Both the position numbers and the translations under genes were made by a program. A stretch of DNA of 64,000 nt from a virus, in IMG/VR virus record IMGVR_UViG_3300033148_005058, positions 1-64,000 of that record. One strand, written 5' to 3'. Shown piece by piece: positions 19,278 through 49,944 of this stretch. The notes beneath the pieces were generated by a model, which did no database searches, was not told where the DNA came from, and worked only from the letters and a program-made list of their open reading frames with translations. Each line of letters opens with the position of its first letter. Position 1 is the stretch's first letter.

Positions 19278-19686
19278 CTGATCTCTTCTCTCTATATCGC
19301 CTATAGGGTCTTGCCGCTCTTTGTTTGATTAAATAGCGTAGACCGTGTTTCATAGCGTCTTTAGCATGACGATCAAATCCCTCCATCCGCGTGAGAGTTA
19401 TACCTGTTCGTTGTGCAGGAGACTGTGCTATGCAAGCAAGTCCAGCGTCTTCTGCTAAATATTGGATAACTCCGATGACTTGCACTGCTGGAAAAGAACT
19501 TCCAATCTGATGTCGAGCTGCCCCAGCGCGCAGATTGAAAGATTCATAAAGCACAATATCGGGTGTGTACTTTAGTAAAAGACCTTTAACATAACTCCAC
19601 ATATGAAAAGAACCGCCTACAATGTTGCCATCAGCAAGGAAACACCATCCTGTTGTCTTGCCAGGGTCAAATACCAGTAGCCTCAT
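19264..19686 (-). CDS. RuvC-like Holliday junction resolvase
   Basis: A 140-residue RNase H-fold nuclease. The first strand carries the catalytic Asp (VFDPGKTTGW, residues 5-14). A second strand carries Glu (IVLYESFNL, about residue 62), and HAKDAMKH near residue 115 supplies the final acidic residue. This is the RuvC acidic set. Such enzymes cut branched DNA before packaging. It overlaps the helix-turn-helix gene upstream (ATGA) and the helicase downstream, so recombination functions are co-translated. Confidence 0.8.
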   Translation of the reverse strand: MRLLVFDPGKTTGWCFLADGNIVGGSFHMWSYVKGLLLKYTPDIVLYESFNLRAGAARHQIGSSFPAVQVIGVIQYLAEDAGLACIAQSPAQRTGITLTRMEGFDRHAKDAMKHGLRYLIKQRAARPYRRYREKRSDASK

Positions 19687-32107: not shown

Positions 32108-32395
32108 CTATTTGCCTTTGGTACTTTTAAATAGCTTCTCCAAATCTCTACCTAACTCCTCGCCTGCATGGGTACAGATCGTGTAATAGAACTTGCGCCC
32201 AATCTCGACACGCTCACATAGTTTGGCATCGCAGAGCTTCTGCAAATGGCGACGAATAGAGACCACTTCTTTAGGAGACCAAAGAAAATTATCTGCTACC
32301 TCCTGTGCTGTCATAGGGCTATCGTCGCGTAGCATATCCAGAATTGCCACCCGTATTGATGAACCCAGTGCTTTACACCTCATTGTTACTGTCAT
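32108..32395 (-). CDS. ArsR-like winged-helix regulator
   Basis: A 95-residue protein with the ArsR/GntR-type winged helix: SSIRVAILDMLRDDSPMTAQEVADNF, then SIRRHLQKLCDAKLCERVEIGRKFYY. No metal-binding Cys pair of classical ArsR is seen. ATG 32395 (behind GGGAGAAAAA) is preferred over upstream GTG 32410. It overlaps the end of a tiny membrane protein gene, suggesting a coupled pair. It may control the leftward operon. Confidence 0.7.
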   Translation of the reverse strand: MTVTMRCKALGSSIRVAILDMLRDDSPMTAQEVADNFLWSPKEVVSIRRHLQKLCDAKLCERVEIGRKFYYTICTHAGEELGRDLEKLFKSTKGK

Positions 32396-37628: not shown

Positions 37629-37954
37629 CAATCTGCACACTTTTCATAAGCAGCTTGAAGCGCGAGATGCGTTTCTGGATGGTCCAGAGAATACGCTGCT
37701 ATAATACTTTGATCAGATTCATGCCACGGTAAGGAGATAGCTAAGTAAGCCTCTATTTTGGCTACACAATCTTTGAGAGTCTTAGCCCTAGCAATACGAC
37801 TGCCTGTATGTACATGGTCCAAGCACCACCAACCGCCCAACTTGTAGACTGCAAAGTGCGTTGCATAAATCCTGGCAGGCATAGGCTCCTTGGTAACTTT
37901 GTTGTCTTTGACCATAGACCGCCAAATCGTTCCCTTGATAGGTTTTAGGCTCAT
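37628..37954 (-). CDS. paralog of the neighbouring gene (short copy)
   Basis: A 108-residue protein. Its first about 85 residues align with residues 1-105 of the next gene upstream: M(S/T)LK, ARIYA, FAVYK, LDH and LKDCVAKIEA are shared. A tandem duplication is clear. It overlaps the neighbour by four bases. Function unknown. Confidence 0.6.
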   Translation of the reverse strand: MSLKPIKGTIWRSMVKDNKVTKEPMPARIYATHFAVYKLGGWWCLDHVHTGSRIARAKTLKDCVAKIEAYLAISLPWHESDQSIIAAYSLDHPETHLALQAAYEKCAD

Positions 37955-39881: not shown

Positions 39882-40079
39882 TTATTCTTCTCCTCTTGCA
39901 GTCTTCGATAGCTGGGATATAACTTCATTACGCACTTTGTTAATTACACGTAGCTGTTCTTTTGCCCACGTTCGGCTCACCTGACGTGCGCCTTCCTGGG
40001 ACCATAACAGCAACTCTGCATGTGCTTTCCACAGGTGGTCGGAGGCTTTTTGCAAACGTAGTGTACTTTGTGTTGACAT
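39882..40079 (-). CDS. small helical protein
   Basis: A 65-residue basic helical protein starting MSTQS at the recurrent ATTATGTCAA element. No strong ribosome site. Its last codons (GAG GAG) supply the site for the next gene. No family recognised. Confidence 0.5.
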   Translation of the reverse strand: MSTQSTLRLQKASDHLWKAHAELLLWSQEGARQVSRTWAKEQLRVINKVRNEVISQLSKTARGEE

Positions 40080-40081
40080 AA

Positions 40082-40339
40082 TTACACTTTCTGCCAGGTT
40101 TTGGCTTTAATACTCTTTCTCACGTAACAACGCACTTGTGACTTTGTCCTCTTCAGGCGTATTATATCCACAATTGCCCGTGCCCGTATTAGCGGGCAAT
40201 CGAGGATAACGGCCATCCCATCTAAGCGTTCTGGCTCTGCGTTGACTGTCTCCCCCACCACAGGCCCTACGACCCAGGTGCCGAGAAACCTGTTCTCGTG
40301 TGTGGCAAGATCGGCCACGTTGACTGCATACGTAATCAT
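40082..40339 (-). CDS. hypothetical small protein
   Basis: An 85-residue protein, beta-rich (FLGTWVVGPVVGETVN, AVILDCPLIRARAIVDIIRL) with a basic end. The ATG overlaps the upstream stop (TAATG), behind GGAGTTGACA. No family recognised. Confidence 0.55.
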   Translation of the reverse strand: MITYAVNVADLATHENRFLGTWVVGPVVGETVNAEPERLDGMAVILDCPLIRARAIVDIIRLKRTKSQVRCYVRKSIKAKTWQKV

Positions 40340-40626
40340 TATGTCAACTCCTGCATATTCATCAGTTTTACCTGTAGCTCTTCCGCTTCAAACAGGTTAG
40401 TCGCGTTTTGGCTAATACACGAGTGTACCTCTGTCAAGCAATCCTGTACCCTTTCCACTAATCTATCGGCTTCCTCAATATGCTCTACACGAATGTTAGG
40501 TACGTGTATTCGATACTGAGCCAGCTCTGCTCCAGCTTTATCTAGCCAGTGTGCCACGCTTGCCAGCCTAGCTAGCTGCTTCTTTTGCGCTGTAATATAT
40601 AAACTATTCCCATATATTTCTCGCAC
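40339..40626 (-). CDS. helical hypothetical protein
   Basis: A 95-residue helical protein starting at GTG directly after the upstream TAG. Both this gene and its upstream neighbour end in ...ELT with the sequence GGGAGTTGACATA or GGAGTTGACATA, which also acts as ribosome site for the next gene. No family recognised. Confidence 0.55.
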   Translation of the reverse strand: MREIYGNSLYITAQKKQLARLASVAHWLDKAGAELAQYRIHVPNIRVEHIEEADRLVERVQDCLTEVHSCISQNATNLFEAEELQVKLMNMQELT

Positions 40627-40838
40627 TATGTCAACTCCCGTACTTCCAATGTTTCTGGGCGCCCTGCATTATCAAGTGCCAGCTTTGCAGCATATCTTGG
40701 TGGCATGTCATTGTCGTACCATGCTCTATATGGACAATCAGGCAGCTCATCAAGATAGAGCCCTGTATGGTAGGTGACCCACATCTCAACGCAAACCCGC
40801 CAGGCACGAAAGTTGGCATACATTTCATTGTTCAGCAT
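40626..40838 (-). CDS. hypothetical small protein
   Basis: A 70-residue protein rich in Trp, Tyr and Cys (ANFRAWRVCVEMWVTYHTGLY). AAGGAGCGCT precedes its ATG. It is separated from the next gene upstream by a strong hairpin. No family recognised. Confidence 0.55.
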   Translation of the reverse strand: MLNNEMYANFRAWRVCVEMWVTYHTGLYLDELPDCPYRAWYDNDMPPRYAAKLALDNAGRPETLEVRELT

Positions 40839-40870
40839 AGCGCTCCTTCATGTTGGCATAATTGCTACAG

Positions 40871-40899
40871 CCTATGCCACAACAGGGTTGTGGCATAGG
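40871..40899. terminator. strong hairpin, 13-bp stem
   Basis: CCTATGCCACAAC / GTTGTGGCATAGG with a 3-base loop, in the gap between two leftward genes. No T run. It could be a terminator-like punctuation, RNA-processing site or protein-binding site. TTGGCATAATTG beside it resembles half of the 24-bp-spaced elements found further right. Confidence 0.5.
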
Positions 40900-40915
40900 T
40901 CTAGTGACTACGTCG

Positions 40916-41104
40916 TTACTTGCGATACAGTGTCAGATTCAAAGAGCGCCCGTCAATTTTAGTTGCGCCGCCAGTTGTGGCAATGACAAGCGTTTTGCCG
41001 GAGGCGGAAGGCGTGACTTGGACTTTTTCCTCGTCGGTTTCGATCCTGATGACAAGTGTGGTCCCATCCATTTCAGTCTTAATATTCTCCCTGTTGCTGA
41101 TCAT
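40916..41104 (-). CDS. small beta-rich protein
   Basis: A 62-residue protein with alternating strands (TTLVIRIETDEEKVQV, KTLVIATTGG). GGGAGAGGC precedes its ATG. It is the first gene after one of the three intergenic arrays of 24-bp-spaced sites. No family recognised. Confidence 0.55.
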   Translation of the reverse strand: MISNRENIKTEMDGTTLVIRIETDEEKVQVTPSASGKTLVIATTGGATKIDGRSLNLTLYRK

Positions 41105-41167
41105 GCCTCTCCCTTCATAGGACTAATGAATTGTGCGAATAGCATAGCACGACTTCGCTCGCGATAC

Positions 41168-41209
41168 ATCGGCCATTATGCTTAACTTGCGCTAGGCATA
41201 ATGGCCTAG
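41168..41209 (-). promoter_or_regulatory. tandem operator-like sites, array 1 (two units, 24-bp spacing)
   Basis: ATCGGCCATTATGCTTAA (41168) and CTAGGCATAATGGCCTAG (41192) start exactly 24 bases apart. Together they form an 11-bp hairpin (GGCCATTATGC/GCATAATGGCC). Downstream on the minus strand lies GTGCTATGCTATTCG, an extended -10-like element, about 50 bases before the ATG at 41104. The same arrangement recurs at 42825 and 45362. Confidence 0.55.
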
Positions 41210-41222
41210 AACATGTGTTTTA

Positions 41223-41459
41223 TTATTCTAAAAGCGCCTCCCTTATTTCGTCTCTGTTGACTTTGGCAAAGTCGATACTCTCTCCGAGTACTCGGTCAAG
41301 CATGGCTACAAACTGCTCTAGCCAGCCCTCCCATTCGATGGTGCTTCGCCAGACTATACCTTTCCCCTCATTATAGGTGCTTTCATCATTTGACAACCAA
41401 AGGAATGTGCACCATGTATCCCAGTTTGTCCAACCGTTGTATGTTTCATCTGTTGACAT
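41223..41459 (-). CDS. DUF7249-like small protein
   Basis: A 78-residue protein starting MSTDETYNGWTNWDTWCTFLW. The YNGWTNWxTWxxxLW signature is common in a widespread family of small phage and plasmid proteins of unknown role (I believe DUF7249). AAAGGAGCATT precedes the ATG, which lies in the recurrent ATTATGTCAA element. Confidence 0.65.
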   Translation of the reverse strand: MSTDETYNGWTNWDTWCTFLWLSNDESTYNEGKGIVWRSTIEWEGWLEQFVAMLDRVLGESIDFAKVNRDEIREALLE

Positions 41460-41468
41460 AATGCTCCT

Positions 41469-41702
41469 TTACTCTGTAGCTATAGGTGTTACTTGTGCAT
41501 TACACTTAAGGCTATATGCGGCACGTGCGGCCACCTCGGTGACAGTATAGCCCAGTTGAGTAATGCCATACTTTGGGGCAAGATTCTGCAGCCAATTCTT
41601 GGCCCAGGCTATAACAAAGTCCTTTTGTGCCGCCGGTCGATCAATGAGGAACTGCCACTTGTGGCGGTTCGACTTCCTATAGTATGCTGTTATTACACGC
41701 AT
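41469..41702 (-). CDS. hypothetical small protein
   Basis: A 77-residue protein (MRVITAYYRKSNRHKWQFLI). ATG 41702 is preferred over 41732, which lies inside the upstream gene. AAGGGGC precedes it. Alpha/beta pattern, no family recognised. Confidence 0.5.
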   Translation of the reverse strand: MRVITAYYRKSNRHKWQFLIDRPAAQKDFVIAWAKNWLQNLAPKYGITQLGYTVTEVAARAAYSLKCNAQVTPIATE

Positions 41703-41703
41703 G

Positions 41704-41922
41704 TTACATGCCCCTTCGACTGTAGGGAACACCCTCCGTAATACGGCGGTGCATTCCCTCCTTAAACTGTTTAAGGATAGCTGCGCCGGTGCAAGAATAC
41801 CAGCAGGTTAAACCGCTAGGGAAGGTTTGCTCTGGGTGTGCTTTGGCATATTTTACACCGGCGATATACTTTTGCAGCGACACCTTGCGACCTTCTGACA
41901 AGGTGACATAACGACTTGACAT
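41704..41922 (-). CDS. hypothetical small protein
   Basis: A 72-residue protein starting MSSRYVTLSEGRKVSLQKYI at the ATTATGTCAA element with AAAGGAGT before it. Basic, contains one CWYSC Cys pair. Its last codons overlap the region that starts the next gene. No family recognised. Confidence 0.55.
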   Translation of the reverse strand: MSSRYVTLSEGRKVSLQKYIAGVKYAKAHPEQTFPSGLTCWYSCTGAAILKQFKEGMHRRITEGVPYSRRGM

Positions 41923-41931
41923 AATACTCCT

Positions 41932-42112
41932 TTATTTTTGGGCACTCGGTAGCTTTGCCATGGAGGGTACCAGCCCATCCATGACTGCGATAGCGCTTAT
42001 ATTCTCGGCACTTTGGGCACTATTCTTCTCCATCCAATACCTGCAACAGTTTTGTGCCGCAAGTATGGCACCGTCCACAATGTCTTATATGCTTGCCACT
42101 AGAATCAAGCAT
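41932..42112 (-). pseudogene. small ORF with apparent 1-base frameshift
   Basis: ATG 42112 (GGGAGTACCATT before it) opens MLDSSGKHI, then runs into TAG at 42020. From about 42085 the other frame is strongly protein-like (VDGAILAAQ .. YWMEKNSAQSAENISAIAVMDGL) and ends at TAA 41932, four bases from the next ribosome site. Removing one A from ATAAGACATT joins both into a single protein of about 58 residues. A short GTG start (42078) is the alternative. Confidence 0.45.
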
Positions 42113-42419
42113 AATGGTACTCCCTTGTATCTGTTGGTGGCCCTATGTGGACCGTTACCCAAGTCTCCACTAAGAATGTATCTTCGCAGTCGTCATACTT
42201 TTGCCGTTTGAGAAAAGCCCAGCCGATAGGACGGGCAATAGCGCCTTCGTCAATATAGACTTTGCCGATACACCGTCCGTATTCGCCCAAAAAGGACGCA
42301 TAGACTTCACCTAGAGTATAGCAGTTACTCTTGAAAGGATCATCACCCCCATAACGATACCCTTCTGTTCTGTTGACATAATCTACTTGAACCCATAGTG
42401 CCGCATCCTGCCCTTCCAT
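42105..42419 (-). CDS. conserved small phage protein
   Basis: A 104-residue protein. ATG 42419 follows GGAGAAGGTACA and is preferred over 42455. It has Trp- and Tyr-rich strands (YRYGGDDPF, IGWAFLKRQKYDDCED) and ends in a VETWVTVH strand. No named family recognised. Confidence 0.55.
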   Translation of the reverse strand: MEGQDAALWVQVDYVNRTEGYRYGGDDPFKSNCYTLGEVYASFLGEYGRCIGKVYIDEGAIARPIGWAFLKRQKYDDCEDTFLVETWVTVHIGPPTDTREYHYA

Positions 42420-42456
42420 TGTACCTTCTCCTTTATATTGACATAATCTCCACATG

Positions 42457-42484
42457 CTTGGCTATAATTCCCATTATAGCCAAG
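42457..42484. terminator. hairpin, 12-bp perfect stem
   Basis: CTTGGCTATAAT / ATTATAGCCAAG with a TCCC loop fills the gap between two leftward genes. No T run. Same kind of punctuation as at 40871 and 44550. Confidence 0.5.
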
Positions 42485-42493
42485 GTCTGAAGA

Positions 42494-42754
42494 CTATGAC
42501 TGCTTAAACTTCTCAAACATATCAAGTTGGCCCTCAAGAAACGCAGCTATTTCACGCGCGGATACTCTGTACCATCTAGGCCAGTAAAAGTCTTCAGCTC
42601 CGTGCTCACTGGCAATTTCTCGCAAAGCATAGCCGCCATAACAAGAGACGAAGTCTAAGTTAATATGGCCCACCGCGTAAGATTCTGAAGGGCGGCCTAG
42701 TGCCTCGTTCAGATTGGCCGTCAACTTTCGCAGATATGCTCTCGTGATTCTCAT
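42494..42754 (-). CDS. conserved small protein
   Basis: An 86-residue protein (LTANLNEALGRPSESYAVG, FVSCYGGYALREIASEHG). The NEALGRP..Y..G.....YGGY.L pattern is one I associate with small accessory phage proteins, role unknown. GGGGAGAAGGTATC precedes the ATG. It is the first gene left of the candidate origin. Confidence 0.55.
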   Translation of the reverse strand: MRITRAYLRKLTANLNEALGRPSESYAVGHINLDFVSCYGGYALREIASEHGAEDFYWPRWYRVSAREIAAFLEGQLDMFEKFKQS

Positions 42755-43670
42755 GATACCTTCTCCCCTCTGTATTTGTATGCTTAACTCTGATTATAGA
42801 CTACCATAGAATAGCGATTAGCACATCGGCATTTTGGCCTATTCTGGTCTAGGCATTTTGGCCTATATCCTACTAGGCATATATACTTAGACTTCTGGAT
42901 AATTATGTAAAGCCCCGACTTGGCTTTTTTTCGCAAAACTATCAAGACTAGCAAAACTGAACAGGCTATAACGCAGGGAAGGACCGGCAAAAGTGTAGAT
43001 TATTGCGTTATTTTGTGGCCTAACAGTGTAAAATAGGCTGTTGTACTGTGACACGTTATGTCAAGACGTTTTTCGCATAGTAAAACAGCGACAAACTGGT
43101 GGACAGGCGATATAATAAGGTAAAACGGGCTAGGTGTAATTTTATTTCATTATTTGATTATTTTATTTCTAGAATATAGAAACGAGCGAAACTGGAGTTT
43201 GGCGGATTTTTGCTCCTTCGCCAATAATCGGTCAAGTTGGGCACATACGCGCTGGGATGTGCTCTATATTCTAAGAATAAAATAATAAAATAATCAAATA
43301 TATTTATATATACAAGGTTCCTTTCTTGTCTTCGTGCCTTCGTTTGCTGTTTTCTCGACGATAAAAACAGCCCGATATTTGATTATTTGATTTTCTTGCA
43401 ATTGTTGACTATGTTCGTCAACAATACAAAGACTATATACATAAAATGCTATTCTTGAGTAACCTTGTCAACATTTGAAAAAAAATCAAATAATCACTTT
43501 GAACCCTATCTATACTTGTCATGACTATTCCATTGTTGTTGACTGCCAGCTATAACAAGGCTATTGCAGTTTATTGAACAAATAATTGTAACAATCGAAA
43601 AGTCGTTACAAAGCGGGCAGTTTACTTGACTACAACCGCCCGCTTATGCTTTGATTGTGGTATACTTTGA
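42755..43670. other. AT-rich non-coding region, candidate replication origin
   Basis: About 916 bases without a supportable gene. It contains long nested inverted repeats: 16 bp perfect (43152-43167 / 43284-43299) extended by CTAGAATATAG / CTATATTCTA, 15 bp perfect (43380-43394 / 43482-43496), and ATTGTTGAC / GTCAACAAT at 43401-43425. The core ATTTGATTATTT recurs four times in both orientations. A GC stem AAGCGGGC / GCCCGCTT lies at 43611-43645. Iteron-like repeats in an AT-rich gap suggest an origin. No clear DnaA box was seen. Confidence 0.55.
42825..42866 (-). promoter_or_regulatory. tandem operator-like sites, array 2 (two units, 24-bp spacing)
   Basis: ATCGGCATTTTGGCCTAT (42825) and CTAGGCATTTTGGCCTAT (42849) start 24 bases apart, 70-110 bases upstream of the leftward ATG at 42754. 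Between them and the gene, TGCTAATCGCTATTC and a TATAAT hexamer on the minus strand (about 42797-42792) suggest a promoter with a poor -35, possibly activator dependent. Confidence 0.55.
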
Positions 43671-43895
43671 CTAGAATGCTAGTGGCACACGTTGATAAAC
43701 TGACGTTACTTGAGGCACGTATCGCCGACATCCCCAAACTTCAAGGTATTCACCTTCCCCGACTTTGACAAATAAACTGCCGAAAGTGTCAAAGTCCTCA
43801 GACTTGACATAATTCTTCATAATATAGTCTATTTCTTGTGAATCCGTGACAAGAGCATACTCTGGCCCAAAGGTTGACGCTTTACGACTTGACAT
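43671..43895 (-). CDS. hypothetical small protein
   Basis: A 74-residue protein starting MSSRKAS at the ATTATGTCAA element with GGGAGTA before it. A second copy of the same 10-mer lies in frame inside the gene (43804). Beta-rich C-terminal half (SLFVKVGEGEYLEVWGCRRY). No family recognised. Confidence 0.55.
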   Translation of the reverse strand: MSSRKASTFGPEYALVTDSQEIDYIMKNYVKSEDFDTFGSLFVKVGEGEYLEVWGCRRYVPQVTSVYQRVPLAF

Positions 43896-43897
43896 AA

Positions 43898-44176
43898 TTA
43901 CTCCCTTTTGATACGTGCTATCCCTAGCGCGTCAAGTGAAGCATCACAAGACGCGCCGAGAAGGTGCTTCTCCGCTTGACGTAACGACTCATAAGCTTGC
44001 CCTAGATCGCGCTCTATGCTGGGATATGCGGTCATTATGGTACAGAGTGTCACTTCGAAGTCTTGGACAGCATCCAGCATGGCATATAATTTATGGTTTA
44101 CGTCGGACAATATGGGATTGTAAGGTATGCGGCTGTTAACTCCACGCGCCCAACGCAAAGCTTCCTCGGTTGACAT
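43898..44176 (-). CDS. helical hypothetical protein
   Basis: A 92-residue helical protein starting MSTEEALRWARG at the ATTATGTCAA element with AAGGGAGCATT before it. Amphipathic helices (YESLRQAEKHLLGASCDASL). No family recognised. Confidence 0.55.
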   Translation of the reverse strand: MSTEEALRWARGVNSRIPYNPILSDVNHKLYAMLDAVQDFEVTLCTIMTAYPSIERDLGQAYESLRQAEKHLLGASCDASLDALGIARIKRE

Positions 44177-44185
44177 AATGCTCCC

Positions 44186-44518
44186 TTATATTATGGTAAG
44201 ATAGCCTGTTTCCTCTAGTGTAGCCTTATCCTCTTCTGATAGCTCAACATCCTCTGTAACAGGCTCAACAATGATGGCATAGTTTGGCCCACCGTAGCCC
44301 TCTTTGGGTTCCAAGTCCAGCCTACCGTCACGTCTTATATGCCCACTAGCAGTGTAGCCATTGCGTTGTCGGTCGATGTCGAACGTTTGTTCTAGTATAT
44401 CTTGCTTATCCCATATCGCAAGATACTCTGCTTCACTTTTCGTTTTGCACAGTATAGACGAGTGTGGCATATATCCAGGCATCGACGTATGGCACACCCA
44501 AAGTCTCCGAGTTGACAT
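44186..44518 (-). CDS. hypothetical protein
   Basis: A 110-residue protein starting MSTRRLWVCHTSMPGYMPH at the ATTATGTCAA element with AAAGGAGCATT before it. Mixed alpha/beta with an acidic C-terminus (EDVELSEEDKATLEETG). No family recognised. Confidence 0.55.
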   Translation of the reverse strand: MSTRRLWVCHTSMPGYMPHSSILCKTKSEAEYLAIWDKQDILEQTFDIDRQRNGYTASGHIRRDGRLDLEPKEGYGGPNYAIIVEPVTEDVELSEEDKATLEETGYLTII

Positions 44519-44549
44519 AATGCTCCTTTACGGTTTATGTTTGTACCCT

Positions 44550-44593
44550 GGCCTAGCATGGTAAACTTTGGGACACGCTTACCATGCTAGGCC
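44550..44593. terminator. strong hairpin, 15-bp perfect stem
   Basis: GGCCTAGCATGGTAA / TTACCATGCTAGGCC with a 14-base loop, the longest perfect stem among the small leftward genes. No T run. It could stop or process transcripts, or bind a protein: it contains CTAGGCC, the half-site of the 24-bp-spaced elements. Confidence 0.55.
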
Positions 44594-44613
44594 AAAGGCG
44601 TAACTTGACATAA

Positions 44614-44799
44614 CTATATGTGCTTGCTGTCTGTCTGTTCGAGATACGGCTCTAGTAACTCTAGCACGCCGAAGAGTATTCTATGAAGGGCTCGTATTGC
44701 GTCAATGTCGGCAGGCTCCACGTCAGCCAGTTCCAATTCATGACGCGCCTTGTGAATAGCATAGCGTGCAGCAATTAGATGTTTTTCCTGTACTAACAC
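44614..44799 (-). CDS. small helical protein
   Basis: A 61-residue helical protein (LIAARYAIHKARHELELADV), starting at 44799 (GTG) behind GAAGGAGAATC. No family recognised. Similar in size and style to the 45025-45240 gene. Confidence 0.5.
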   Translation of the reverse strand: MLVQEKHLIAARYAIHKARHELELADVEPADIDAIRALHRILFGVLELLEPYLEQTDSKHI

Positions 44800-44820
44800 G
44801 ATTCTCCTTCTACAGTATGA

Positions 44821-44985
44821 CTATAACACGTCAAGTAGGTTGTTAATTGCCCATATCCGTATAGCTGCTTCAATTTTGTCGGCTCCCGTTGTAGCAAAGT
44901 CATACTCGAATGAATAGCGCTCCAAAGCGTCATATAGGACAATGCGCAAGGCCACTATCGTATGCCCAGCATATATTGTTGACAT
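44821..44985 (-). CDS. small helical protein (54 residues)
   Basis: A 54-residue frame, MSTIYAGHTIVALRIVLYD, starting at the ATTATGTCAA element with AAGGGAGCATT before it and ending in TAG. It is below usual length cut-offs but has the same start signal as its neighbours. No family recognised. Confidence 0.6.
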   Translation of the reverse strand: MSTIYAGHTIVALRIVLYDALERYSFEYDFATTGADKIEAAIRIWAINNLLDVL

Positions 44986-45024
44986 AATGCTCCCTTCGTG
45001 TTACGCTTCTTGTGCTAATTCCTC

Positions 45025-45240
45025 TTATGCCCAGCAAGGTTTATCTTTGCGCAAACGTGCACACTCTGCGTTAATCATTGCACCCATCGCCACATCAATG
45101 TCAACAAGCATTGCTTGCCATCTTTGCATAACAAGCGCTTCCGGTCCAGCATATTCACGTATGCTCCCCTGCAATTCCTGCTCCGCGTCTTGTAGTTTGC
45201 CCTGCGCACGTTGTAGGTAGTATAATTGCCCCGCCTTCAT
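45025..45240 (-). CDS. first gene of the leftward module, helical protein
   Basis: A 71-residue helical protein (LYYLQRAQGKLQDAEQELQG). GGGAGGAGAATC precedes the ATG. It is the first leftward gene after the divergent intergenic region that carries array 3 and two TTGACATAA elements. No family recognised. Confidence 0.55.
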   Translation of the reverse strand: MKAGQLYYLQRAQGKLQDAEQELQGSIREYAGPEALVMQRWQAMLVDIDVAMGAMINAECARLRKDKPCWA

Positions 45241-45674
45241 GATTCTCCTCCCGTTATGTCAAATAAGGTTTGTGTCCCAATTATGTCAACGTGCTAGGTC
45301 CGCACGATTGTTTGTTATTGCCTATGGCGACATCAGCATAGCACACGTTGTGTGTTTTCGTATCGGCCAAATGGCGTATTTGTGTCTAGGCAGTTTGGCC
45401 TATCCCTATCTAGGCATAATGGCCTATGACATTTGTTCTATTTACATAATGCTTCGCTTTGCAACTGGCTGCAATATAATGATATAGGCTAGCTGTAATT
45501 GTCTCGCAGGCTAGAAAACTGCAAAGTAAAGAAAGAAATAGTGGGTGGGCTCTGTAGATGATGTGGCCTTCCTATTTTAAACTCGCCCTACTTTTTGGTC
45601 GCATACATTTTTAGTAACGGTTTCGCCCACTGAGCCGAGTTTGCTACGGTTTACTGGAGCGCAAAAGGCCAACC
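45241..45674. other. divergent control region between leftward and rightward operons
   Basis: About 430 bases without a supportable gene. It holds, from left to right, two minus-strand TTGACATAA elements (45253-45262 and 45290-45299), the extended -10-like GTGCTATGCTGATGTCG on the minus strand (about 45352-45336), three operator-like units and an A-rich tract with GGGTGGGC around 45530-45550. It is the main transcription switch point of the window. Confidence 0.6.
45362..45427 (-). promoter_or_regulatory. tandem operator-like sites, array 3 (three units, 24-bp spacing)
   Basis: Three 18-bp units begin at 45362 (ATCGGCCAAATGGCGTAT), 45386 (CTAGGCAGTTTGGCCTAT) and 45410 (CTAGGCATAATGGCCTAT), each exactly 24 bases from the next. 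The first and second can also pair (GGCCAAA/TTTGGCC). They lie 120-190 bases upstream of the first leftward gene, with an extended -10-like element between. Confidence 0.6.
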
Positions 45675-45703
45675 TTGCGTTCTCTGAACAGATGTGCTAT
45701 ACT
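45675..45703 (+). promoter_or_regulatory. promoter of the terminase operon, TTGCGT-17-TATACT
   Basis: TTGCGT (45675-45680) and TATACT (45698-45703) are spaced by 17 bases. The expected start point, seven bases after the -10, is 45710, the A of the ATG of the small terminase. This predicts a leaderless transcript. No other good start or promoter is close. Confidence 0.55.
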
Positions 45704-45709
45704 GAGGGT

Positions 45710-46294
45710 ATGGAAATAGAAGTACTCGATGCCATAGATACAAAAGCGCTTCCCAGCGTTCTTGCTCAGCATGAGCTAGAGATTCGCGAGATGCTTTGCT
45801 CCGGTTGGACCCCAATTAGGGTACATCGTTTCCTCAAAGCGGTGCGCTCGGTTGAGGTGCCTCTACAGGACATCAGTGATTACCTCGGTAGCATCCCCAA
45901 GGCCGAACTTCTCGACTTTACAGCGCTACAGAAACGCTACAACCAGATCAACATCCAGGTAGATGCTATGGGTGAACTAGCCCGCTTACTTCGACTAACG
46001 TCCGACAGGCTAGGTGCTGCTTTGATGATAGAGGAGGCCAGCGGAACACGTCTGGCCTACGTAGATACCGTTACGGCAAGCTATTGGAAGATGCTGAGTG
46101 AGTATGTAGAGATACAGCAGTCAATAGGTGAGCTTCCTTCTACGAAGGGTAGCAACCCCCCTGTGCAACCTGGGGCTGCCGCTCAACTGCTTGGAGGGAA
46201 GCCTTTGCCTTCTTTGCGTTCTTTGTTGCTTGAGGTTAAGTATGGACCTGACAACCAAAGACCTCCAACTAATCCGAGAGGCTCTACTACGTAA
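45710..46294 (+). CDS. terS: terminase small subunit (probable)
   Basis: A 194-residue protein directly before and overlapping the large terminase. Residues 10-60 include a probable DNA-binding helical unit (HELEIREMLCSGWTPIRVHRFLKA). Residues 75-150 are coiled-coil helices suited to oligomerisation. ATG 45710 is chosen over TTG 45641 because the longer frame would run through the promoter. The protein would recognise the packaging site. The family call rests on place, size and layout. Confidence 0.65.
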   Translation: MEIEVLDAIDTKALPSVLAQHELEIREMLCSGWTPIRVHRFLKAVRSVEVPLQDISDYLGSIPKAELLDFTALQKRYNQINIQVDAMGELARLLRLTSDRLGAALMIEEASGTRLAYVDTVTASYWKMLSEYVEIQQSIGELPSTKGSNPPVQPGAAAQLLGGKPLPSLRSLLLEVKYGPDNQRPPTNPRGSTT

Positions 46295-48107
46295 CTTCTC
46301 CCTAACGGATCTGGAAAAGTCGGGGCGCTTAGACGATCCCCCTACTCAGGAGTTATGGAAACAGTTGGCAGAGATCGACCTTGAGTTCTTTGCTGGCTTC
46401 TACTTGCCCAATCACTTCGATTGCGCCCCCGCCCCTTTGCACAAAGAGACCTACCGAACTATGGAGCAGGCAATTAGTTCACCAGGCAAGATAAACAATG
46501 CCTTAGTATGGCCTAGAGGCTTTGGAAAGACTACTACTACAACGTTAGCGCTCCCCCTCTGGTGTATTTGCTTCAGAAAGCGCCGGTTTATCCCCATTAT
46601 ATCCGACTCACATACGCAGGCCAAGCAACAGTTGGCCACCATCAAAGACGAGATAGAACATAATGATCGTATCAAAGAGGATTTTGGAGAGCTTCAAGGG
46701 GCGAAGTGGCAAGAGGACGATATTACCACAGCTAACAGGGTGAAATTGATAGCCCTGGGTGCGCGTATGAAGATTCGAGGGCGCAAGTTTCTGCAGTACC
46801 GCCCCGACTTGATCATTGTAGACGACTCCGAGAACCTGGAAGGGGTACAATCCGCTACCAGAAGAGAAGCCCACCGCAAATGGTTCTGGCGCTCAGTTAT
46901 GAACGCCGGTTGGTCTGATACCAAAGTGTTTGTAGTGGGCAACTTTTTGCACTTCGATTGCTTGCTACAACATTTGGTAGACAACCCTATGTTCCACTCA
47001 CGTGTGTATCAGGCAGTACCAGCTTGGGCAGAGCGTGAGGACTTGTGGGAGCATTGGCGTGGGTTAGTTACTAACCTGACAGACAAAAACAAGGAGAAGA
47101 CTGCCTATGCCTACTTCTTGGCCCATAAAGAGGAGATGCTCAAAGGCGCGGTCTCCGCCTGGCCGGAGGCATTTAGTTACTACGACTTAATGCTCACGCG
47201 GGTAGCTGGGGGTGAAGCGGCATTTGCTACTGAGCTACAAAACGAGCCTGTAGACCCCAAGAGTAGGTTGTTCAAAAAGTGGGAGACTTTCCGCATGGAA
47301 TACCGGTCAGCTTCCGCTGGCCTGGCGGAGGGAATCTGGCTAATACCCTCGAATGGGCAGGTGGCAGTGCCACTTAGCGCTTGCACAATTTTCGGCTTCA
47401 CAGACCCTAGCATGGGCGGCTCAGTACAGTCAGATTACTCGGCTATTACACTAATTGCCAAGGCACCTACTAGGCAGATGTTTGCAATTGTTTCTGACAT
47501 CGAACGCAGACCACCAGATCGCCTGATCAATGCGCAGAATAAATGGGCCAAAGAGTATCCCATTGCCCGCTGGCGGATTGAGAAGAATGCTTTCCAGGCG
47601 CTTTTTGCTACAGAGTCCGCCCGCCGGTCGATGGAAGAGGGCGTTTACCTGCCTGTAGAGCCCTACAACCAGCTTTCTAACAAGCAAATGCGGATCAATT
47701 CTCTACAGCCCGATTTGGAGAACGGCTACTTGATGATCCTGGAGAATGGCCAGTCATTGCTCAAGAAAGAGCTTAGAGAGTGGCCCATGGGAGCCTATGA
47801 TGATGGCCTGGATTCCCTGGAAGGCTGCCGAACGCTTGCTAAGAGCTTTGAATCACAGATCTCGACGGAACTAATCCAGGCTAAAGCACATGAGTTTGCG
47901 CCCAATCAGGCACCTGGAGCAGATATACGCATTCCACTAGGTACAGATCCTTTTGCCAAGTATGATAAGATGGCCGATAAGACAATTTATGACTTGCAAG
48001 TAGCTGCTGCCAGGAAACAGGCAACAGCAGAAGGGAGGGACCCAGATGTAGCACAGGAGGAAATACCTGTACCGGTAGAGATATTTGTTCCGATGATGTT
48101 CGCATAA
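46242..48107 (+). CDS. terL: terminase large subunit
   Basis: A 621-residue packaging ATPase and nuclease. Walker A-type motif ALVWPRGFGKTTTT (about residue 90), Walker B PDLIIVDDSE (about residue 190) and, in the C-terminal nuclease, FGFTDPSMGG with the first catalytic Asp (about residue 388) are visible. ATG 46242 follows TTGAGGTTAAG. Upstream codons of the frame lie in the small-subunit gene. The overlap with that gene suggests coupled translation. The acidic set of the nuclease is otherwise not fully resolved by eye. Confidence 0.9.
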   Translation: MDLTTKDLQLIREALLRNFSLTDLEKSGRLDDPPTQELWKQLAEIDLEFFAGFYLPNHFDCAPAPLHKETYRTMEQAISSPGKINNALVWPRGFGKTTTTTLALPLWCICFRKRRFIPIISDSHTQAKQQLATIKDEIEHNDRIKEDFGELQGAKWQEDDITTANRVKLIALGARMKIRGRKFLQYRPDLIIVDDSENLEGVQSATRREAHRKWFWRSVMNAGWSDTKVFVVGNFLHFDCLLQHLVDNPMFHSRVYQAVPAWAEREDLWEHWRGLVTNLTDKNKEKTAYAYFLAHKEEMLKGAVSAWPEAFSYYDLMLTRVAGGEAAFATELQNEPVDPKSRLFKKWETFRMEYRSASAGLAEGIWLIPSNGQVAVPLSACTIFGFTDPSMGGSVQSDYSAITLIAKAPTRQMFAIVSDIERRPPDRLINAQNKWAKEYPIARWRIEKNAFQALFATESARRSMEEGVYLPVEPYNQLSNKQMRINSLQPDLENGYLMILENGQSLLKKELREWPMGAYDDGLDSLEGCRTLAKSFESQISTELIQAKAHEFAPNQAPGADIRIPLGTDPFAKYDKMADKTIYDLQVAAARKQATAEGRDPDVAQEEIPVPVEIFVPMMFA

Positions 48108-48123
48108 AGGGAGGGGGACCCCT

Positions 48124-49944
48124 ATGAAACACGATCCGATACCGATTATTATTCCGACATTCAATGCTGTACACCATCTCAAGCGATGTATTTCTACTCT
48201 GACACAACGCACTCTCAGGGACTACCATGTTTATGTGGCAGATGATTGCTCTCCTCAAACTGCGCTGCAAGAGTATCTGAACGATATTTCCGCCCTCGCT
48301 AATATCACGGTGTTCAAAGCGCGGACGCGGAAGGGCTACGCAGAGATTAACAACTGGGCAATAGCACAAATACCCCCCTCGGAGTACCTCTGCTTGCTGA
48401 ACTCAGACATCGAACCGCTGGAGGGGTGGCTGACCGCTATGGCAGAGGAGTTAGACACTGACTCGAAGGTAGGGATTGTAGGAGCCCGCCTACTTTACCC
48501 AGATACAAAGGGCGCGCCCCACCAACTAACGATCCAGCACGCGGGGGTGGCTCGAACCGCAGATAATCTACCCTACCATCCTTTCCGGGGGCAGCCTGTC
48601 GATTACGAACCGGCGGCTCGACGACGAGAGATCAACGCAGTTACATTTGCGTGTGCGCTTATTCGACGTAGTTTGTGGGATCAGCAGGGTGGACTCGACG
48701 AGGGCTACGCCGGCGGTAACTTCGAGGACGTGGACTTTTGCTGGCGTGCTAGAGATGCGGGCTGGAAGGTCATTTATCAGCCCAAGGCTACCTTGTACCA
48801 CTACGAACACGGTTCTGGGACTGAATGGGTTGAGAAGCATTCTTACACAAACAGCATCCGGCTACGCAAAACGTTTGCCGGTTTGGGGAGCGATGAACAC
48901 TTGTTCAATCTGTCGCCGACGATGTCAGATGGGAGCCCTGTACCAGGTGTCGAAATAGAAGAAGAAGAAGAAGAGGAAAAGATAGAAGTAGAAGAGCCCG
49001 CGCAACCTCCGGAAGACGCATTAGACTCCCCTGTGCAGCCTACGACAGCGTCTCTAAAGTTTGCTCTCTCTGTAATCATTCCTGTATATAACCGTCGAGA
49101 GCATCTTTATCTGTGCCTGTGCGCTTTGGAGCGGTGCCTGGATCACTACAAGAAGCCCTTAGAGGTCATTGTAGTAGATGACGGTTCCACTGACGATCCA
49201 CTAGGTGTGATGCTGGAGTTCCAAGATCGCTTTGATTTGCAATATAGGTGGCAACCACATCATGGTTATAGAGCATCCTTGGCGTATAATCGAGGGTGCG
49301 CTATAGCGCGTGGAGAGGCTTTCTTGCTTTTGGGTTCTGATATTTTACTAGAAGCCCCTTCGCTGGTACACCTGATGAATCTGCACGCGGCTAACCCTGA
49401 TGCGCTTATTGCAGGACAGTACGACTGGCTGCATCCTATGCAAATCCACCCGTATGACGTTTATTCTAATTGGGAGGCAATTGTAGAGGAAACTTTGCCC
49501 CCTACCCCTTTTGGACGAAGACTCAAAGGGATTATTGGGACAGATCCACGATTTTTAGAGCGCCCAGAACTGTTCGAGGGCGCTCCGCAAGCGCAATATG
49601 CAGCTCAACTATTTGCTGATGTTTTGATGTTTCCCAAACACGTCTACAATGCTCTTGGAGGCTTCGATGAGACGATGGTTACACACGGGGGGCAGGACTG
49701 CGAATTGAGTATCAGGTGTCAACAGGCAGGCTACCCAGCGATTTTTACAAAGCTAGTACACGGCTACCATATCTATCATGACAGGGATCAAAAAGCGCAC
49801 CGCAAAACGCTAGCGGAGAATGTTTTGTATATAATGACCAAGCACGACCTTGCTGCGGTAGGACTTCAAGTGCAGGGTACAGGCGAGGATATTTTTATTG
49901 CACCTAGTTATAGAGGAGGACCAGAGAAACATGCCAAAGCATAA
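48124..49944 (+). CDS. glycosyltransferase with two GT2 domains
   Basis: A 606-residue protein. Domain 1 (residues 1-260) has IIPTFNAVHHLKRCISTL, ADDCSP and LLNSDIEPLEGW (DxD-type). An acidic linker (residues about 278-295) leads to domain 2 (IIPVYNRREHLYLCL, VVDDGSTDDP, LLLGSDILLEAP). Both are GT-A folds that use nucleotide sugars. Two domains in one chain suggest processive or two-step sugar addition. GGGAGGGGGACC precedes the ATG. It opens the sugar cassette after the terminase. Confidence 0.85.
   Translation: MKHDPIPIIIPTFNAVHHLKRCISTLTQRTLRDYHVYVADDCSPQTALQEYLNDISALANITVFKARTRKGYAEINNWAIAQIPPSEYLCLLNSDIEPLEGWLTAMAEELDTDSKVGIVGARLLYPDTKGAPHQLTIQHAGVARTADNLPYHPFRGQPVDYEPAARRREINAVTFACALIRRSLWDQQGGLDEGYAGGNFEDVDFCWRARDAGWKVIYQPKATLYHYEHGSGTEWVEKHSYTNSIRLRKTFAGLGSDEHLFNLSPTMSDGSPVPGVEIEEEEEEEKIEVEEPAQPPEDALDSPVQPTTASLKFALSVIIPVYNRREHLYLCLCALERCLDHYKKPLEVIVVDDGSTDDPLGVMLEFQDRFDLQYRWQPHHGYRASLAYNRGCAIARGEAFLLLGSDILLEAPSLVHLMNLHAANPDALIAGQYDWLHPMQIHPYDVYSNWEAIVEETLPPTPFGRRLKGIIGTDPRFLERPELFEGAPQAQYAAQLFADVLMFPKHVYNALGGFDETMVTHGGQDCELSIRCQQAGYPAIFTKLVHGYHIYHDRDQKAHRKTLAENVLYIMTKHDLAAVGLQVQGTGEDIFIAPSYRGGPEKHAKA

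Follow-up and report, generated by a model that had tools for sequence, protein, structure and literature searches.

The systems described so far that most closely resemble the arrays reported here are the lambda right operators and the class II sites of activators such as NtcA. In lambda, OR3, OR2 and OR1 are 17-bp dyads that start at 37951, 37974 and 37998, with periods of 23 and 24 bp. CI bound to OR1–OR2 activates PRM (TAGATA/TAGATT), whose −35 element is non-consensus (PMC3708714). NtcA sites are centred at −41.5 (PMC3898017), and cyanophages carry sites for this host activator, with 1–16 sites per genome (PMC3037559).

The window analysed here comprises bases 1–64,000 of a 65,186-bp virus record, whose phage is labelled G000, and contains three arrays of tandem dyads. 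In lambda, the PRM −10 element is 30 and 54 bp away from the centres of OR2 and OR1, and the proximal and distal G000 units are centred 30.5 and 54.5 bp from theirs, so that the arrays resemble OR2–OR1 without OR3, a likeness of position only. Both systems combine dyad operators at a 23–24-bp period (16-bp dyads at 24 bp in G000) with a non-consensus −35 element. The original prediction knew of no described family with this layout, a statement that the period and promoter distance of the lambda operators do not support; the arrays are thus not wholly unprecedented. In contrast to lambda, the operator sequence is TAGGC-N6-GCCTA, an OR3-like site over the promoter is absent, each genome has several co-oriented rather than divergent early promoters (all leftward in G000), no CI/Cro (HTH_3/XRE) gene is found among the 25 of 34 families listed for 46 leftward G000 proteins, and the module recurs in phages with almost no genes in common. 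With class II promoters of CRP and NtcA, the arrays share a 16-bp dyad centred near −41.5/−42.5 and, as in cyanophages, several site copies per phage; unlike those sites, they are tandem with a fixed period, and their half-site is TAGGC, not GTA or TGTGA.

Three dyad arrays precede leftward early genes

In G000, the structural genes point rightward, and one long leftward cluster (~17.6–45.2 kb) holds the replication genes together with many small genes without an assigned product. All three arrays are intergenic and lie within the first 4.3 kb of this cluster. They are built from a 16-bp dyad, TAGGC-N6-GCCTA, whose centre is A/T-rich; there are two, three and three units in arrays 1, 2 and 3, respectively, always at a period of 24 bp. 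The features are listed below in plus-strand coordinates, and the 16-bp core of each unit starts at the first position given.

40916..41104, minus strand: first gene downstream of promoter 1, 62 aa, predicted leader 30 nt
41141..41149, minus strand: extended −10, promoter 1, TGCTATGCT, predicted TSS about 41134
41169..41184, minus strand: array 1, proximal unit (−50 to −35), TAAGCATAATGGCCGA
41193..41208, minus strand: array 1, distal unit (−74 to −59), TAGGCCATTATGCCTA
42494..42754, minus strand: first gene downstream of promoter 2, 86 aa, predicted leader 37 nt
42798..42806, minus strand: extended −10, promoter 2, TGGTAGTCT, predicted TSS about 42791
42826..42841, minus strand: array 2, proximal unit, TAGGCCAAAATGCCGA
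42850..42865, minus strand: array 2, second unit, TAGGCCAAAATGCCTA
42874..42889, minus strand: array 2, third unit, degenerate, TAAGTATATATGCCTA
45025..45240, minus strand: first gene downstream of promoter 3, start of the leftward early cluster, 71 aa, predicted leader 88 nt
45335..45343, minus strand: extended −10, promoter 3, TGCTATGCT, predicted TSS about 45328
45363..45378, minus strand: array 3, proximal unit, TACGCCATTTGGCCGA
45387..45402, minus strand: array 3, second unit, TAGGCCAAACTGCCTA
45411..45426, minus strand: array 3, third unit, TAGGCCATTATGCCTA
45427..45438, minus strand: array 3, upstream flank, GAACAAATGTCA

The original prediction had placed operator-like units 24 bp apart in three intergenic regions. 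These units are present, and a census of unit pairs over the whole 65-kb record, allowing at most three mismatches over 20 half-site bases and covering spacings of 16 to 60, finds spacings of 24 (5 pairs) and 48 (2 pairs) and none other. Its two types of 18-bp unit mark real sites that are better described as a single dyad, the 'ATCGGC' type being the promoter-proximal unit in every case. In this unit the outer half-site is degenerate and overlaps the −35 position; on the minus strand, GCSGA forms the end of each proximal unit, and T[G/A] comes next. For array 2 the two units first recognized stand, and the degenerate third had been missed. The start codons lie about 64, 71 and 122 bp from the arrays, which replaces an earlier estimate of 65–190 bp.

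Several other features accompany the arrays. A GAAC-N3-TGT sequence similar to GAACAAATGTCA borders the outermost unit of most arrays, those of phages G006 and G008 (see below) among them, and resembles one half of a GAAC-N4-GTTC box. Array 2 adjoins ~780 bp of AT-rich non-coding DNA (42890–43670) with a long inverted repeat around 43144–43300 (TTTGATTATTTTATTTCTAGAATATAGA / TCTATATTCTAAGAATAAAATAATAAAATAATCAAAT); this region is a candidate origin or structured RNA, and an Rfam search of 40000–46500 gave no match above threshold. Many small leftward genes have a translation start of the AAGGAGCATTATGTCAAC type, and those at 41459, 41922, 43895, 44176, 44518 and 44985 on the minus strand are near-identical, with AAGGAGCATTATGTCAAC or a close variant. 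Its complement gives TTGACATAAT on the plus strand, which looks promoter-like but does not by itself indicate a promoter.

An extended −10 element lies at a fixed distance from the proximal unit

Each G000 array is followed, 22 bp downstream of its proximal unit, by an extended −10 element of consensus TGnTAnnCT (TGC-TATGCT, TGG-TAGTCT and TGC-TATGCT at promoters 1, 2 and 3). Specifically, on the minus strand the −10 hexamer is exactly 22 nt past the final A of GCSGA. The −10 elements first proposed for arrays 1 and 3 (TGCTATGCT) are retained, while the one proposed for array 2, TGCTAATCG, lies upstream of TGGTAGTCT, the element at the common 22 bp. With the TSS predicted 7 nt after the end region of the hexamer, as usually counted, the units are centred at about −42.5 (proximal), −66.5 and −90.5, and each predicted leader has a Shine–Dalgarno sequence before the start codon.

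All three promoters point leftward, ahead of early genes, in agreement with the proposal that the sites are common to a set of co-oriented promoters, and the fixed period suits cooperative dimers. The −35 hexamers match the consensus at only 2–3 of 6 positions, and a consensus promoter scan does not pick up the array promoters, which together fits activator dependence. The additional units are located solely upstream, and no unit covers the −10 element or the start site. By position, with a site at −42.5 relative to the predicted TSS, a −35 match of 2–3/6 and an extended −10, these resemble class II promoters. The proximal dyad over a poor −35, the extended −10, the exact spacing and the upstream-only extra units correspond to class II geometry with upstream cooperating dimers.

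The module is conserved in kin and recurs in unrelated phages

The original prediction had suggested searching the genome and its relatives for the 24-bp motif. A large-terminase scan of viral contigs identified kin (identity 77–82%), among which G003 (67.7 kb, largely syntenic with G000) has four arrays and G002 (11.9 kb) has two; G001 is a near-identical contig of the G000 phage. The G000 homologues (38669 and 39524) of two array-driven G003 genes have no array, indicating that arrays come and go without a change of form. Conservation in relatives had been named beforehand as a test of the sites, and the sites pass it. Across ten arrays, pairwise identity is 96% in the distal half-sites, 74% in the extended −10 and 35–40% in the linkers and the −30 to −16 spacer, against 25% for random stretches.

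An array-pattern scan that leaves the −10 unspecified recovered G006 (60.9 kb, 60% GC), which has no more in common with G000 and G003 than an HNH domain and one tail-completion-like protein. Its first array has the same type of −10 at an equal distance and is located where the early cluster of G006 begins; a second (59111/59134, period 23) emerged from a profile search. The 22-bp distance between proximal unit and −10 is kept in all ten arrays of G000, its kin and the first G006 locus, and also in the second G006 array. Among the 67 sites matching the array pattern without the −10, TGnTA occurs at the fixed place in 4 of 5 true phage arrays (the fifth has TACTA) and at none of the 62 chance sites, which come from viral and GTDB contigs. 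Built without G000 data, a 71-bp profile scores the three G000 arrays at 73, 58 and 48, and six block-shuffled genomes at 6 or less; likewise, in leave-one-phage-out profiles the omitted arrays score 48–73 and shuffled sequence at most 6.

A looser scan, for one intact unit plus an extended −10, yielded G417 and the single-unit cases. G417, which shares mainly glycosyltransferase- and methyltransferase-like genes, has one array of two perfect units at period 23 (TGCTATTAT); outer-unit periods across carriers are 22–24 bp. Single-unit versions occur in G008, G418, L121/L124 and the AT-rich L122-like and L125-like families. Of 8 lineages, 7 have a unit-to-TG spacing of 20 nt and not 19 (binomial P about 0.035, two spacings being allowed). 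Less weight attaches to the single-unit and AT-rich cases, in which other proteins may be involved. L106 and L113 proved to be chance matches.

Some carriers have features of their own. In G008 (L114), the minus-strand region 43663–43800 holds a single dyad with a TAGAACATATGTAT flank and a TACAAT hexamer 23 nt on, one more than in G000, and the N-terminus encoded by gene 47761–48495 resembles, by eye, the DnaA N-terminal domain. The AT-rich contigs L125, L126, L131, L133 and L134 have in common a conserved regulatory block, TAGGCATAATTGCCTA...TGATATATT, that separates divergent genes and is followed downstream by more TAGGCA half-sites; on one side, the genes vary by contig. A ~40-aa protein rich in glycine and basic residues, with the motif CPGxKIRSGG, is encoded in G417 (L135/L136, 24958–25080) and G003 (42723–42848), array-carrying phages that are otherwise little related.

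Host-encoded and phage-encoded regulators

The recurrence of the module in phages with almost no genes in common suggests that the promoters are switched on by a DNA-binding protein that the cell encodes or that is shared in some other way. A protein comparison found no DNA-binding protein common to G000/G003, G006 and G417 apart from small HTH domains of a generic kind. A site this close to invariant, with no phage protein in common, speaks for a host factor, as with NtcA in cyanophages, and since no regulator common to all carriers was found, a host-encoded activator is our leading hypothesis.

The array pattern was compared with cellular genomes. In its strict form it gave 58 matches in 84,980 bacterial and archaeal species (GTDB), versus an estimated 60 or so expected by chance, none with TGnTA at the fixed place; 400 genomes from the phylum of a Caldilineaceae (Chloroflexi) MAG gave 2 matches versus 1 control. 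Both scans are at chance level, and thus no host regulon is seen in these genomes; the set may lack the host, or the host's own sites may be single. Named phages contain no array, only 18-base matches. Protein relatives were sought for terminase, primase, capsid and other genes, but none was close and informative about the host; a DNA polymerase search of the viral collection gave pattern matches with no relative confirmed, and a literature search on the palindrome TAGGC-N6-GCCTA returned nothing.

A phage-encoded activator or dual regulator, an early protein that binds the arrays and turns on middle promoters, with divergent versions elsewhere, is an unlikely but serious alternative. All carriers encode small helix-turn-helix proteins, which could be diverged phage regulators, and small HTH_17 or ArsR-like proteins are examples of possible binders. 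In particular, G000 and G003 have in common HTH proteins at 19683 and 36680 (the latter with a poor predicted structure, pLDDT 53) and an ArsR-like protein at 32108, G006 has HTH_17 and LexA-type DNA-binding domains, and HTH_17-like genes lie, by eye, near the sites in G417 and G418. However, no homologous regulator was found between the lineages, the best HTH_17 pair compared reaching only 18.5 bits over 23 residues, and divergence of the proteins past detection would have left the operator almost unchanged. Proteins of the HTH_17 type are found in many phages and as a rule bind direct repeats, whereas the array sites are dyads. The ArsR- and MerR-like regulators put forward in the original prediction are not supported, as they have no detectable homologue in G006 or G417, which nonetheless carry the same module.

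Activation and repression

A protein bound over the −35 could equally well act as a repressor. A phage, prophage or host repressor that closes the early promoters, in early-gene shut-off, superinfection immunity or autoregulation, is in our judgement unlikely but possible. In its favour are the overlap of the proximal unit with the −35, the tandem dyads at 23–24 bp, which are typical of lambda-type repressor operators, and an extended −10 that could fire without an activator; against this, the −10 and start are free of units, the core promoter is weak, the exact distance to the −10 is kept although repression does not need it, and the families listed for the leftward proteins (25 of 34) include neither a CI/XRE-type repressor nor an integrase. 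Iteron-like replication or packaging sites, which intergenic tandem repeats beside a 780-bp non-coding region might recall, are very improbable, as there are only 1–4 arrays per genome, all oriented with early genes and every one followed by an extended −10 and a 30–88-nt leader.

Discussion

The site sequence, the periods, the fixed −10 distance, the place ahead of early genes, the conservation in kin and the recurrence in unrelated phages are direct observations. We infer that dimers bind and cooperate, that they activate rather than repress, and that the protein comes from the host. The OR2/OR1-like placement and the poor −35 favour class II activation by cooperating dimers, and the same module in phages with almost no shared genes suggests that the protein is most likely host-encoded; we advance this combined reading tentatively, as the most plausible one. 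The array would then be the upstream half of an early-gene promoter, with each 16-bp dyad occupied by a dimeric DNA-binding protein. The proximal dimer, centred at about −42.5 over the poor −35, would contact RNA polymerase and lead to initiation at the extended −10, and dimers 22–24 bp further upstream would stabilize it by cooperativity, like lambda CI at OR2 and OR1. An incoming phage would thereby use a pre-existing activator of the cell to start its early operons.

It is possible, if doubtful, that several unrelated lineages obtained, by convergence or by exchange, a standard early-promoter cassette for an undescribed host class II activator, consisting of tandem TAGGC dyads, an extended −10 and sometimes the upstream GAAC-N3-TGT. 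If the regulator is phage-encoded, the arrays represent an operator system of the activator type in phages that showed no CI-like gene. If it is a host activator, the site offers a clue to the host of phages that are known from metagenomes alone, and phages without common genes could be grouped by their common early promoter. The arrays would then provide a directly testable case, beyond NtcA in cyanophages, of an incoming phage using a regulator of the cell.
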